64,000 nt of DNA from positions 274 to 64,273 of the forward strand of contig NZ_ATZE01000010.1 in assembly GCF_000428045.1 (NCBI RefSeq), in the 5' to 3' direction. Numbering within the stretch: the stretch's first letter is position 1; every line of letters begins with the position of its first letter. This DNA is from Sedimenticola selenatireducens DSM 17993 (GTDB lineage: Bacteria > Pseudomonadota > Gammaproteobacteria > Chromatiales > Chromatiaceae). The notes under the pieces were generated by a model, which saw only the letters and a program-made list of their open reading frames with translations, did not search any database and was not told the DNA's origin. The translations under genes and the position numbers were made by a program. Below are positions 21,760-26,118 of this stretch, piece after piece.

Positions 21760-21913
21760 CCCCTTCCCTGCCCACCGAGAATGATTTAAACGGCCGTGAC
21801 GGGCATCCCCTCAGCTATTTTTCAAACCACACAGACCAAAGAGTTTTCCCTTTGCCAATATTCCCGGGTAAACTGTAACTGCAGATGTGATTTCATGTTG
21901 AGGATCCCGCTTG

Positions 21914-22378
21914 ATGTCTAGTACCAGAATTATAAAAAAGTACCCTAATCGTCGCCTCTACGATACGGAATTGAGTCGCTATATCACCCTGAGCGACATC
22001 CGGGAACTGGTTATGAAGGGAACGGATTTTCAGGTGGTTGACACCAATACCAACGAAGACCTTACCCGCTCAATCCTGCTGCAGATCATGCTGGACGAAG
22101 AGTCCGGCGGCGAGCCGCTGTTCAGCGCCAAGATGCTGTCCCAGATCATCCGTTTCTATGGCGGCACGGTACAGGGCATCCTGGCCCGCTACCTGGAAGA
22201 GAGCCTCTCCATGTTCGTGCAGCAGCAGGATCAGCTTAACAACACCGTCGGCACCGATCCGGTGAAGGCGATCACCAACATGGCTGAACAGAACATGCGC
22301 ATGTGGGCCGACATGCAGAAGAATTTTTTCAAAGCAGCCGGTCTTGCCGGTGCCGGCAACAGAAAAAAAGAAGAATAA
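21914..22378 (+). CDS. phaR: Polyhydroxyalkanoate synthesis repressor
   Basis: PhaR binds both PHB granules and DNA, and represses phasin genes until polymer is present. The 154-residue protein starts with the PhaR DNA-binding domain (IIKKYPNRRLYDTELSRYITLSDIRELV) and continues with the PHB accumulation domain (LFSAKMLSQIIRFYGGTVQ, ARYLEESLSMFVQQQ). A TTG lies one codon upstream of the chosen ATG. A terminator follows, then the phasin gene with a palindrome at its promoter that is a likely PhaR site. Confidence 0.95.
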   Translation: MSSTRIIKKYPNRRLYDTELSRYITLSDIRELVMKGTDFQVVDTNTNEDLTRSILLQIMLDEESGGEPLFSAKMLSQIIRFYGGTVQGILARYLEESLSMFVQQQDQLNNTVGTDPVKAITNMAEQNMRMWADMQKNFFKAAGLAGAGNRKKEE

Positions 22379-22531: not shown

Positions 22532-22546
22532 TGCAATATTATTGCA
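22532..22546. promoter_or_regulatory. Likely PhaR operator at the phasin promoter
   Basis: TGCAATA-T-TATTGCA is a perfect palindrome lying at the expected transcription start of the phasin gene. PhaR proteins recognise TGC/GCA-rich sites, and autoregulated phasin repression is known for this family, so PhaR from the gene just upstream is the best candidate. Confidence 0.65.
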
Positions 22547-22571
22547 ACGCACAATTCCTGGAGAGCGCGCA

Positions 22572-22949
22572 ATGAAAGATCCAAAGGCAAATCTTGAACT
22601 GATCAAAGAGTTCGGTATCAACGGCTACGAAAATATCCGGACCCTGGCGGAAATCAACCTGCGCACCTGGGAAAAATTGATCGAAAAACAGATGGATACT
22701 TTCGGCCTGTTGGTGGATACCGGTATCGAGCAACTCTCGGTCAACAGCAAATCCAGTGACCCAAAGGAGCTGTTCAACAGCCAGGTCGCCTTGAGCAAGA
22801 GCCTCAGCGAAAACCTCGCCGGCAAGGGTCGTGACGCAGTCAACCTGGCAACTCAGGCCGGAAATGAGTATCGCAGCTGGCTGGAAAACGGCATCAATAC
22901 CTTCAACAGCAAAGTAACTGCCGCGGCTGAAGAGGCGTTGAAACAGTAA
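22572..22949 (+). CDS. phaP: Phasin-family granule protein
   Basis: A 125-residue helical, amphipathic protein with the phasin pattern (ANLELIKEFGINGYENIRTL, then LSKSLSENLAGKGRDAVNLA). Phasins coat PHA granules and control their size. The ATG at 22572 follows GGAGAG; an in-frame start 30 bases upstream would lie within the promoter region. It has its own strong promoter, likely repressed by PhaR. Confidence 0.88.
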   Translation: MKDPKANLELIKEFGINGYENIRTLAEINLRTWEKLIEKQMDTFGLLVDTGIEQLSVNSKSSDPKELFNSQVALSKSLSENLAGKGRDAVNLATQAGNEYRSWLENGINTFNSKVTAAAEEALKQ

Positions 22950-23054
22950 CTATTGTCCGCATCCGCCGTTGCGGATGCGATGAAATCCCGAAGGCCTCTG
23001 GCGGCCTTCAGGCAGAAATCCTCCTCTCTCTGAACAGTGCATAGAGAGATTTTC

Positions 23055-23082
23055 GCCCGGCTCCCCGCCGGGCATTTTTTTT
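23055..23082 (+). terminator. Rho-independent terminator after phaP
   Basis: GCCCGGC/GCCGGGC stem (23055-23061 and 23067-23073) followed by ATTTTTTTT. Confidence 0.85.
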
Positions 23083-23096
23083 AAAACCTCATTAAT

Positions 23097-23225
23097 TACC
23101 GCCAAGCACGCAAAGAACACAAAGGAAAACAGTAGCTTGTATTCGTGACATCCTTCCTCTACCAGGCGGGACAAAAGGAATACACGCCATTGCATCGCTT
23201 GGCGTACTCTGCGTTCTTCGCGGTT
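23097..23225. repeat. Repeat family C, copy 2
   Basis: Left arm TACCGCCAAGCACGCAAAGA and right arm (reverse complement AACCGCGAAGAACGCAGAGT) are imperfect inverted copies, as in the element at 5087-5200. It lies between the phasin terminator and the dsrA leader. Confidence 0.7.
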
Positions 23226-23427
23226 GAATCAAAAAACCAAGGGTCGCGGACAGTTCACATCCAGCCACCGCTCGCATACCCCAATTACCCAGTGGTTTAC
23301 TTGGTATTGGTTTGATCTATCATCATCGTCAAGCCCCCATAGATAGGCGGGCCACACTCTAAAGGCAGTCCCGGAGCGACATCTCGACTCAATATTCCGG
23401 GTGACTGGTAATTTTGGGAGGAGCAGT

Positions 23428-24675
23428 ATGACAAAACCAATGCATGATACCCCGATGCTGGATCAGCTGGAGGGAGGTCCTTGGCCGAGCTTTGTTACCG
23501 GCCTGAAGCGTCTGGCAAAAAACAGCGACATGATGGTCGACCTGCTGGGTCAACTCGAAACCTCGTACGAAACCCGAAAAGGCTACTGGAAAGGCGGCAC
23601 CGTCGGTGTCATGGGCTACGGCGGTGGTATTATCCCCCGCTTTACCGAATTGAAGGACGCCAACAACAAGCCGCTGTTTCCCGCGGCTGCCGAGTTCCAC
23701 ACCCTGCGCGTCATACCGCCACCCGGCATGCACTATGACACCAAGACCATCCGTCATCTTTGCGACATCTGGGAGAAATACGGATCCGGCCTGATCGCCT
23801 TCCACGGCCAGTCCGGCGATATCATGTTCCAGGGCTGTACCACGGAAAATGTGCAAAAGGCGTTTGATGAGATCAACAAGGCGGGCTTCGACCTGGGTGG
23901 CGCCGGCCCGGCCGTGCGTACCGGCATGTCCTGTGTCGGCGCGGCGCGTTGCGAGCAGTCCTGTTATGACGAGGCGCGGGCCATGCGCACCTGCGTGAAT
24001 GCCAATCTGGACGACATGCACCGTCCGGCTCTGCCTTACAAGCTCAAGTTCAAGGCATCCGGTTGCGCCAACGACTGCATGAACTCGATCCAGCGGGCCG
24101 ACGTGGCGATGATCGGTACCTGGCGTGATGACATGAAGGTGGATCAGGCGGAAGTCCAGGCATTCGTGGCAAAGAAGGGTCGCAAGTACACCATCGATAA
24201 CGTGATCACCCGCTGCCCGACCCAGGCACTCTCCCTCAACGATGACGACACGCTGGTGGTGGACAACCACAACTGTGTGCGCTGCATGCACTGTATTAAT
24301 GTCATGACCAAGGCGCTCTCACCCGGTGACGACAAGGGTGTGACCATCCTGGTGGGCGGCAAGCGCACGCTGAAAATTGGCGATCTGATGGGCACGGTAG
24401 TCGTGCCGTTTCATAAGCTGGAGACCGACGAGGATTTCGAGTGGCTGGAAGAACTGAGCACCAACATCCTCGACTTCTTTGCCGAAAATGCCCTGGAGCA
24501 CGAGCGTACCGGTGAGATGATCGAGCGTATCGGCCTGATCAACTTCCTGGAAGGCCTCGGTCTGGAGATCGAGCCGGAGATGATCTCCCAACCACGCACC
24601 AACCCCTATGTCCGCACCGACGACTGGGATGAGCAAGCGGCGAAATGGAACGAGCGTAAATCAGGGGCTATCTGA
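23428..24675 (+). CDS. dsrA: Dissimilatory sulfite reductase, alpha subunit, without adjacent dsrB
   Basis: DsrA with DsrB forms the siroheme enzyme of sulfur oxidation (reverse direction) or sulfate reduction. The 415-residue protein is full length. The coupled siroheme/[4Fe-4S] ligands are Cys169-x5-Cys175 and Cys213-x3-Cys217, and a ferredoxin insert follows with Cys263, Cys283, Cys286 and Cys289. KGGTVGVMGYGGGIIPRF is a DsrA hallmark. GGAGGAG precedes the ATG. In known dsr loci dsrB follows directly; here a hairpin and a convergent unrelated gene follow. So this is probably a second dsrA copy, or its partner is elsewhere. It looks intact and I see no sign of decay. Confidence 0.93.
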   Translation: MTKPMHDTPMLDQLEGGPWPSFVTGLKRLAKNSDMMVDLLGQLETSYETRKGYWKGGTVGVMGYGGGIIPRFTELKDANNKPLFPAAAEFHTLRVIPPPGMHYDTKTIRHLCDIWEKYGSGLIAFHGQSGDIMFQGCTTENVQKAFDEINKAGFDLGGAGPAVRTGMSCVGAARCEQSCYDEARAMRTCVNANLDDMHRPALPYKLKFKASGCANDCMNSIQRADVAMIGTWRDDMKVDQAEVQAFVAKKGRKYTIDNVITRCPTQALSLNDDDTLVVDNHNCVRCMHCINVMTKALSPGDDKGVTILVGGKRTLKIGDLMGTVVVPFHKLETDEDFEWLEELSTNILDFFAENALEHERTGEMIERIGLINFLEGLGLEIEPEMISQPRTNPYVRTDDWDEQAAKWNERKSGAI

Positions 24676-24698
24676 CCCTATCCCATCTCATGGAACGG

Positions 24699-24722
24699 AT
24701 ACCCGACCTTCATGTCGGGTAT
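24699..24722 (+). terminator. Hairpin after dsrA
   Basis: ATACCCGAC/GTCGGGTAT 9-bp stem with a 6-base loop, followed by TCTTACTT. It ends the dsrA transcript 47 bases after the stop codon and supports dsrA being monocistronic. Confidence 0.65.
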
Positions 24723-24724
24723 TC

Positions 24725-25183
24725 TTACTTTGGCGTTATGTGCAGTTCCGTATTGTCGATATGGGCGATCAGCACCATCAGAAACTTGAACAGGTATTGC
24801 AGCCGGGCACGTACGTCGATGGCGGCGGAATTGAGGTTGAGCTTCTTAAGCACCGCCACCCGTTCATAGGCTTTATGGATCAGCTGTCCGGTTGACCACC
24901 CATGATATTTCTCAAACTCTTTCACGCCACCATAGGTACGTCGTGCAAGGCACTTCTTCTGGATCGAATCGAGAGGGGTGCCCTTTTCATTGGCTCGCCT
25001 GTACTGCCCCTCTTCCAGACCGGCAATAATCGTTGAATCATCCAGTCGCTCCGCCAGCCCGGCACGCAGAAAGGCAAGATTCTGCCTCAGCTCCATCACC
25101 AGCAGGTTTTTTGAGGAGCGCCGGTCCAGGTGTCTGGCGTATTCATTATCGAAAATATGGTACAGGTCCTGAATAATAGTCAC
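24725..25183 (-). CDS. Unrecognised 152-residue helical protein
   Basis: I do not recognise this gene. The protein is basic, predicted mostly helical, with no signal peptide, no membrane segment and one pair of isolated cysteines at most. Features include HLDRRSSKNLLVMELRQNLA, RRTYGGVKEFEKYHGWSTGQ and a hydrophobic LQYLFKFLMVLIAHID near the C terminus. The start is a GTG at 25183; an ATG 29 codons in is possible. Codon use resembles that of neighbours. It is convergent with dsrA (49 bases between) and lies upstream of ubiA on a separate strand context, so it may be a single-gene unit. Confidence 0.65.
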   Translation of the reverse strand: MTIIQDLYHIFDNEYARHLDRRSSKNLLVMELRQNLAFLRAGLAERLDDSTIIAGLEEGQYRRANEKGTPLDSIQKKCLARRTYGGVKEFEKYHGWSTGQLIHKAYERVAVLKKLNLNSAAIDVRARLQYLFKFLMVLIAHIDNTELHITPK

Positions 25184-25212
25184 GATCTTTCGTTATTCCG
25201 CCCCTGGCTCCG

Positions 25213-26118
25213 TCACGCCAGCAGATAATCCAGCAACAGCCCAAAGAAAATCACCATGCCGACACAGTTGTTGTTCAGGAAGGCGGTGAAACAGGCGGCA
25301 GGCTCGCGATTCCGGATCAAGGCCTGCTGCCGCACAAACAGCAGGCCCGCCACGACCAGGCCCAGGTAGTAAGCCAGACCCAGCCCCACCTCTACGCCGA
25401 CCAGAACCAGCAGTACCAGCATGGTCAGCTGCAACAGACCGATAATCAGACGATCCTGCCGGCCAAACAGGATGGCGGTGGATTTGACCCCGATACGCAG
25501 ATCATCTTCCCGATCTACCATGGCGTATTCGGTGTCATAGACCAGCGCCCAGATGATAGCCGCCAGATAAAGCAGCCAGGCAATGGCCGGGATGTTACCC
25601 AACAGGGCCATGTAGGCCATCGGTACCGCCCAGCCGAACGCCATGCCCAGAACCAACTGCGGCAGATGGGTATAGCGCTTCATAAACGGGTAGAGTGCCG
25701 CGAGCAGCACGGCCACGACCGACATCAGCACAGTCTGCCGGTTGAGCAGCAGCACCAGACCGAAGGCGACCAGACAGAGCGCGCCAAAGACCCAGAGCGC
25801 CGCTTTTGGCGACACTGCGCCGGTGGCAATTGGCCGACCACAGGTCCGTTTTACCTGGCCGTCGATATGCCGGTCGGCATAGTCATTGATGGCACAACCG
25901 GCGGAACGCATTAGCGCCACACCCAGAATGAAGACCAGCACCACCCCCCAGCGCGGCTCACCGGCGCCGGCCAGCCACAGGGCCCAGAGTGCCGGCCACA
26001 GCAACAGCAGGATACCGATCGGCTTGTCCAGCCGCACCAGACGAATGTAACCATCCAGTTGTTGGCGCAGGGTACGGGGCGCCGTGACTGCCTTGATATC
26101 AAATTCCGAATGACTCAT
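25213..26118 (-). CDS. ubiA: 4-hydroxybenzoate polyprenyltransferase
   Basis: UbiA attaches the polyprenyl chain to 4-hydroxybenzoate in ubiquinone synthesis, in the inner membrane. The 301-residue protein has about eight to nine membrane segments and both Asp-rich prenyl-diphosphate sites, [15 protein letters not shown] and [13 protein letters not shown]. It overlaps ubiC by 4 bases, so the two are coupled. Confidence 0.96.

Follow-up and report, generated by a model that had tools for sequence, protein, structure and literature searches.

A lone, conserved dsrA gene in Sedimenticola that may encode an alternative alpha subunit of reverse dissimilatory sulfite reductase behind a proposed IscR2-type operator

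The stretch of Sedimenticola selenatireducens DSM 17993 DNA analysed here (64,000 nucleotides; the window) carries an intact lone dsrA gene, dsrA2. The gene occupies a fixed locus and is under purifying selection, a single dsrB is present in the genome, sequence exchange between the two dsrA copies is seen in some genomes, and the motif at the dsrA2 promoter is common to iscR2 and sodB. On balance we favour the reading that DsrA2 is an alternative alpha subunit which pairs with the DsrB of the main dsr cluster, and that its gene carries an IscR2-type operator. Sulfur-globule oxidation centres on the enzyme DsrAB, and dsrA is in standard use as a marker gene. If cells do have another alpha subunit with a switch of its own, numbers of dsrA genes and transcripts would not equal DsrAB, and the composition of DsrAB may change with the redox state.

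The features of the dsrA2 region, with what each assignment rests on, are as follows.
21911..22378, + strand: phaR-like PHA accumulation regulator, conserved left neighbour (Pfam PHB_acc_N and PHB_acc; synteny)
22542..22949, + strand: phasin gene, conserved left neighbour (Pfam Phasin_2; synteny)
23286..23306, + strand: 21-bp palindrome TACCCAGTGGTTTACTTGGTA, proposed IscR2-type operator (conserved; overlaps a -35-like hexamer)
23296..23323, + strand: sigma-70-like promoter TTTACT-16-TATCAT (matches the consensus at 9 of 12 positions; lies in a block that the genus conserves)
23416..23423, + strand: ribosome-binding site GGGAGGAG before ATG 23428 (sequence; GGGAGG conserved in the genus alignment)
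23428..24675, + strand: dsrA2, lone DsrA of the oxidative type, 415 residues (open reading frame, profile scores, structure alignment, tree)
24697..24724, + strand: terminator-like hairpin between convergent genes (22-49 bases after the dsrA2 stop)
24725..25183, - strand: convergent gene, family not assigned (no Pfam match)
25213..26118, - strand: ubiA, conserved right neighbour (Pfam UbiA; synteny)

The dsrA2 reading frame (23428-24675) contains no internal stop. Its product scores 543.3 bits against the dsrA profile TIGR02064 (cut-off 392.85), which places it in the DsrA family, and 131 bits against the dsrB profile TIGR02066, below the cut-off of 341.5. The full-length, intact dsrA without an adjoining dsrB that had been proposed from the DNA alone is thus borne out by the 415-residue frame and the TIGR02064 score. 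The solved structures that match DsrA2 best are alpha chains of dissimilatory sulfite reductase, with 3mm5_A on top. Eight cysteines, namely Cys169, Cys175, Cys213 and Cys217, which we take to be the siroheme/[4Fe-4S] motif, and Cys263, Cys283, Cys286 and Cys289, presumably those of the ferredoxin insert, are kept in 8/8 lone and 95/95 paired DsrA, in agreement with the earlier claim that every cluster ligand is present. The alignments of DsrA2 to 3mm5_A and 2xsj_A are consistent with these roles. The protein is 98% identical to its counterpart in S. hydrogenitrophicus SN1189. A further cysteine, Cys189 (window 23992-23994), was found in all eight lone and four of the six clustered Sedimenticola DsrA and in none of 95 other DsrA.

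No dsrB lies near dsrA2 at this locus, where adjacency to dsrB would be usual, though not strictly defining, for a dsrA. The next gene is convergent (24725..25183, - strand), as originally described. A search of the remaining genome (4.59 Mb in 37 contigs), which the original prediction had recommended, found one dsrAB cluster with a second dsrA, and one dsrB above the cut-off. This clustered gene, dsrA1 (contig C1, locus L005), is followed by dsrB and then, as read from translations, by dsrE, F, H, C and further dsr genes; DsrA1 is 87% identical to DsrA2 and has the same cofactor cysteines. A single dsrB above the cut-off, within the dsr cluster, was found in 6/9 Sedimenticola genomes including that of the source strain, and none in the remaining three, all of them drafts (completeness 65, 78 and 90%).

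Across the genus, DsrA1 and DsrA2 show 15 fixed differences over 415 positions. At positions 18, 111, 148, 227 and 411 it is DsrA2, and not the clustered copy, that has the commonest residue of 95 paired DsrA; at positions 2, 144, 382 and 384 the reverse holds. Of 160 positions at which at least 95% of the 95 paired DsrA agree, the lone copies deviate at three (in 1/8, 4/8 and 8/8 lone rows, respectively). As judged by these comparisons the lone dsrA2 is neither decayed nor simply derived. With one dsrAB cluster, one dsrB and nearly all conserved positions kept, the first of the originally proposed alternatives, a second dsrA that uses a remote dsrB, fits the data.

A lone dsrA was found between phasin and ubiA in 9/9 Sedimenticola genomes (G007 read via L037, G002 via L038; the G005 locus is split over two contigs). 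Beyond this set, the same spot holds a lone dsrA in G023, which we took as Ca. Sedimenticola endophacoides and read separately (L126), in the single-contig genome G066 and, with the locus spread over contig ends, in G093 and G017, and the phasin - dsrA2 - ubiA arrangement extends over Sedimenticola and three other genera. The convergent gene is matched only at L142 and L121 among the genus loci compared and is not present in all relatives. The dsrA search covered 146 genomes of the family, and the ubiA locus was read in 20 outside the genus. A dsrA adjoins ubiA in two of these 20 (G066 and G093), and in G080 and G115 the end of a dsrA lies on the ubiA contig, 10.4 and 4.9 kb away; the others have no dsrA near ubiA, or their contigs end close to it (as in G017). 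Since the single-contig relatives G109, G124 and G164 have no lone dsrA at the ubiA locus, dsrA2 is dispensable in them. The distribution indicates that dsrA2 is an old resident of the locus, absent in many relatives. Misassembly was rejected on the grounds that G003 has the same arrangement inside a contig of 3.93 Mb and G066 has it in a one-contig assembly; a contig error hiding a dsrB that follows, raised at the outset, is contradicted by the recurrence of the locus in relatives.

The region 5' of dsrA2 was examined for regulatory signals. The strong ribosome-binding site proposed in front of ATG 23428 was confirmed (GGGAGGAG). The hairpin 3' of the stop codon is also present, at 22-49 bases after the stop rather than at 24-47; three terminator-like hairpins were found in the region versus 2.4 expected, so that chance alone would yield nearly as many. 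The three sigma-70-like promoters found in the dsrA2 region, versus 1.0 expected, are weak evidence when taken alone. A block conserved throughout the genus alignment holds TACCNAGTGGTTTACTNGGTA, which overlaps the -35-like hexamer. The 480 bases upstream, originally described as repeats and a leader only, therefore contain a promoter-like site and a conserved palindrome (23286-23306), and no inverted repeat was detected there; the repeat finder, set to at least 10 bp, did not report the interrupted 8-5-8 palindrome. No RNA family reached its gathering score in 22900-25250. The element GCCAAGCACGCAAAGAACACAAAG at window 23101-23124, which we take to be a dispersed repeat from its looks, has one copy in the window.

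The palindrome occurs once in the window (chance expectation 0.02). At 0-1 mismatch there is one site per genome, before dsrA2, in 9/9 Sedimenticola genomes. At up to three mismatches the nine genomes give 16 matches versus 12 for a reversed control, so that only the 0-1 mismatch sites are telling; a looser word, shaped after the iscR2 hits had been seen, gave 30 matches versus 9 for its control. A matrix trained without the dsrA2 sites placed the dsrA2 site at the top of the window with 24.6 bits (next site 8.2; best of 15 shuffles 15.0). The site before dsrA2 of G023 scores 20.6 bits and the upstream region in G017 7.7 bits, and the operator was not among the best hits of the matrix scan before dsrA2 of G093 and G066.

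In the form of the looser word, the palindrome also lies 25-27 bases before iscR2, a second IscR-like gene, in 9/9 Sedimenticola genomes. At the level of sequence dsrA2 and the regulator's own promoter thus have the palindrome in common, as is expected of an IscR regulon. A site is also found about 50 bases before the Fe/Mn superoxide dismutase gene sodB (gene read in G000 and G002; word present in 5/9 genomes). A third recurrent site (L279 near 2605) lies by two genes, one whose product has an Xre/MbcA/ParS C-terminal domain and another with no Pfam match, and possibly marks a further IscR2 target. IscR2 belongs to the Rrf2 family by Pfam, scores 196.8 bits versus a TIGR02010 cut-off of 207.55, and has the C-X5-C-X5-C pattern, which we take to be that of IscR; the iscR2 gene of G008 is split between two reading frames. 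A canonical IscR is also encoded, beside what we read as a cysteine desulfurase-like gene. The nine canonical iscR loci of the genus reach 13.6 bits at best versus 32.6-33.9 bits at three iscR2 loci scanned alongside. Outside the genus, a matrix trained on the dsrA2 sites alone found sites before iscR2 in 13/20 genomes of other genera, versus 0/10 genomes before canonical iscR. The 13.7-bit limit used here was chosen after the scores had been seen and is reached by 0.27% of 4000 random pieces; the 99th percentile of the background (10.3) gives the same 13/20. Many genomes without a lone dsrA at the ubiA locus also have iscR2.

In E. coli, the type 2 operators of IscR are CC-N13-GG palindromes, one such site lies before the regulator's own gene, and superoxide dismutase is a target. 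The dsrA2 motif has the spacing, the own-gene site and the superoxide dismutase target in common with that regulon, but differs in the inner bases and in its regulator, a further IscR that falls short of the TIGR02010 cut-off. To our knowledge no sulfite reductase subunit is an IscR target. In Allochromatium grown on pyrite, according to PMC11267869, iscR goes up while dsrA and dsrB go down, a response that is at least consistent with iscR and dsr being linked.

The place of the motif before iscR2 suggests that IscR2 binds the dsrA2 palindrome, and because the operator is common to dsrA2 and a superoxide dismutase gene, dsrA2 is probably under iron-sulfur or redox control. In the mechanism that we propose, dsrA2 would provide reverse dissimilatory sulfite reductase with another functional alpha subunit, and DsrA2 would pair with the DsrB that the main cluster encodes, so that DsrA1-DsrB and DsrA2-DsrB enzymes would exist side by side. 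The dsrA2 promoter would carry an operator for IscR2 as a second IscR-like [2Fe-2S] regulator, so that the supply of DsrA2 would track the iron-sulfur or redox state (O2, nitrogen oxides, iron), and DsrA2 would perhaps replace alpha subunits with damaged clusters. We infer assembly with DsrB and binding by IscR2, and in the same spirit suggest a direction of control and the replacement role; the control may extend to the main cluster. In a fuller version, damage to the clusters or scarcity of iron would bring IscR2-controlled DsrA2 into the complex with DsrB, and gene conversion would leave both subunits exchangeable in some lineages; we put this forward tentatively, as less likely than not.

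The main cluster complicates the picture. The start regions of dsrA1 lack the dsrA2 palindrome in the genus alignment, and dsrA1 of the source genome (L005), which unlike dsrA2 is accompanied by dsrB and further dsr genes, has no operator of the dsrA2 type near its start but a related word at about -440. This word (TACCCAAGTAA) lies 428-441 bases upstream of dsrA1 in 6/6 genus clusters (L005 near 5703; L116-L120) and scores 5.3-11.1 bits in the 4/6 loci where it is among the two best hits. It may serve dsrA1 or the gene on its other side. The main cluster may therefore see the same regulator, and for this reason our confidence in separate control was brought down slightly, while staying on the favourable side, and that in subunit exchange, rather doubtful from the start, was lowered a little too.

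A tree of 121 DsrA (14 duplicate loci and five short rows, L141, L131 twice, L124 and L121, omitted) places the Sedimenticola lone copies (8 rows, support 99) as sister to the clustered copies (6 rows, support 93; together 98). DsrA2 groups with DsrA of sulfur oxidisers, among the proteobacterial rows of a tree with no reductive-type references; the tree that the original prediction had called for thus puts DsrA2 with the oxidative type and next to Sedimenticola DsrA1. The lone DsrA of G023 is placed next to the G017 clustered copy (support 92). In a tree of the 5' DNA the lone copy is joined to dsrA1 of its own genome in G066, G017 and G093. The 3' DNA tree, in which the bootstrap had not settled and which holds no lone copy of G017 or G093, again joins the G066 lone copy to its own dsrA1 and brings the Sedimenticola copies of both kinds together. 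The AU test, with the G005 pieces, G093_A2c and G094 omitted, rejected a single clade of all positional dsrA2 in both the 5' part (12 rows, p 2e-53) and the 3' part (10 rows, p 4e-43), and gene conversion was therefore considered.

The two copies of G017 are 95.1% identical over 588 nt, whereas identity between G017 and G093 orthologs is only 85.0-85.5%. In G066 the copies are 80-87% alike per 90-nt piece up to about nt 496 and 91-100% from there on; they differ by 0.162 in the 5' part versus 0.041 in the middle (p 9e-12; borders of this and the following comparisons picked after seeing the identity profile). G001 and G006 show the same unevenness (p 1e-6 and 5e-7) and G055 a mild one (p 0.007). 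The source genome (G000) shows no uneven exchange (0.192 versus 0.179, p 0.58) and no recent exchange was seen in it; the difference is not significant in G002, G003, G008 and G023. Seven control pairs between genomes comprised five even pairs, one uneven in the same direction (p 0.03) and one in the opposite direction (p 0.03). G017 is homogenised in its 5' part too. Such uneven identity is what gene conversion of the core leaves, as the sequence profiles have it, in some lineages. Near-identity at conserved sites, together with an exchange by which some lineages keep the core of both genes similar, points to a shared partner for DsrA1 and DsrA2.

Exchange of this kind also fits plain dosage, with dsrA2 as an extra source of the same alpha subunit that is kept similar by gene conversion and serves no special condition. 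The few fixed differences between DsrA1 and DsrA2, the homogenisation in G066, G017, G093, G001 and G006, and the related word upstream of the main cluster, which could mean shared control, all agree with it. DsrA and DsrB are, however, needed 1:1, yet no dsrB accompanies dsrA2; the conserved operator near the dsrA2 promoter is absent at that place in dsrA1; and in G066, G001 and G006, if not in G017, homogenisation is weaker over the first ~450 nt than further on. We consider plain dosage unlikely, if a serious competitor to the alternative subunit pairing with DsrB. Several independent duplications into the same spot, instead of one old copy with gene conversion, would explain why the lone copies do not form one clade, but would have to hit the same intergenic spot between the same neighbours in four genera, and the mosaic identity profiles within some genomes speak against them; we regard them as improbable.

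Pairwise dN/dS lies at 0.012-0.050 among the lone copies (27/28 pairs; one dS infinite) and at 0.011-0.055 among the paired copies (15 pairs), figures that are rough since many dS values are near or above 1. Purifying selection on dsrA2 is about as strong as on paired dsrA, contrary to the relaxed selection that had been envisaged as a counter-case. A pseudogene or decoy was ruled out by these values and by the conserved sites that are kept.

Selection close to that on the paired gene, and the homogenisation of both genes in some genomes, also run against the homodimer, regulatory decoy or different role first proposed as alternatives. DsrA is not expected to work without DsrB. A biochemical role of its own without DsrB, as a homodimer or with another partner, would suit the lack of a dsrB in the dsrA2 neighbourhood and the gene's own promoter motif; DsrA2 is nevertheless kept as DsrA1 is over nearly all conserved sites, and exchange with dsrA1 would spoil a separate interface, which makes such a role quite improbable. 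Capture from a phage of sulfur oxidisers is very improbable and phage origin is not supported by the tree, for although viral lone dsrA exist (PMC8190135), viral DsrA are 62-68% identical to DsrA2, those included in the tree are placed elsewhere, and the neighbours of dsrA2 are conserved in the genus, those scanned being PHA and ubiquinone genes.

A dsrA that lies apart from dsrB has precedents. The original prediction took dsrA and dsrB to be neighbours in every well-known dsr locus, to which the two extra, unlinked dsrA of Thiobacillus denitrificans are an exception (Beller et al. 2006, cited in Loy et al. 2009, PMC2702494). These genes, like dsrA2, are of the oxidative type, lie away from dsrAB and lack a dsrB, with 78-83% DsrA identity; unlike dsrA2 there are two copies and they are betaproteobacterial. 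One Thiobacillus row in our tree (L109) falls far from the Sedimenticola lone copies, on a long branch whose place is unsure. We know of no fixed locus or IscR-type operator for the extra dsrA of Thiobacillus denitrificans. Several dsrA pieces were noted in Thiobacillus sp. 65-1402 (L109; contigs C37, C178 and C179 of G056), and the L109 dsrA has no dsrB within 721 bases after it.

Phages also carry dsrA without dsrB, and these genes are thought to supplement the host enzyme (Kieft et al. 2021, PMC8190135). Phage dsrA, for example that of Lauvirus lau218, lack dsrB as dsrA2 does, but lie on phage genomes and belong to another DsrA clade. Since unlinked extra dsrA are already known from Thiobacillus denitrificans and phages, the kind is not new. 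If our reading is true, dsrA2 would be a cellular counterpart to phages with dsrA but without dsrB, a question left open in PMC8190135. In the open-licence literature searched we recognised no paper on a lone dsrA in Sedimenticola, on dsrA paralogues undergoing gene conversion or on dsrA being controlled by IscR. Named Sedimenticola strains exist, and the idea should be directly testable.

Some further dsrA loci came to light. Four of six IMG/VR dsrA contigs (L136-L141) have no dsrB in the 1.9-8 kb after dsrA, and L139 ends in dsrA; L141 may be bacterial because a dsrB adjoins its dsrA. Besides a paired copy (L242), a Thiohalomonas denitrificans MAG carries a lone dsrA (L045 10001-11236) in a setting different from that of dsrA2. 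Several family members (L238, L239, L240, L241 and L129, the last with its dsrA near a contig end) carry a second dsrAB of a deep, separate type that is ~50% identical to DsrA2.
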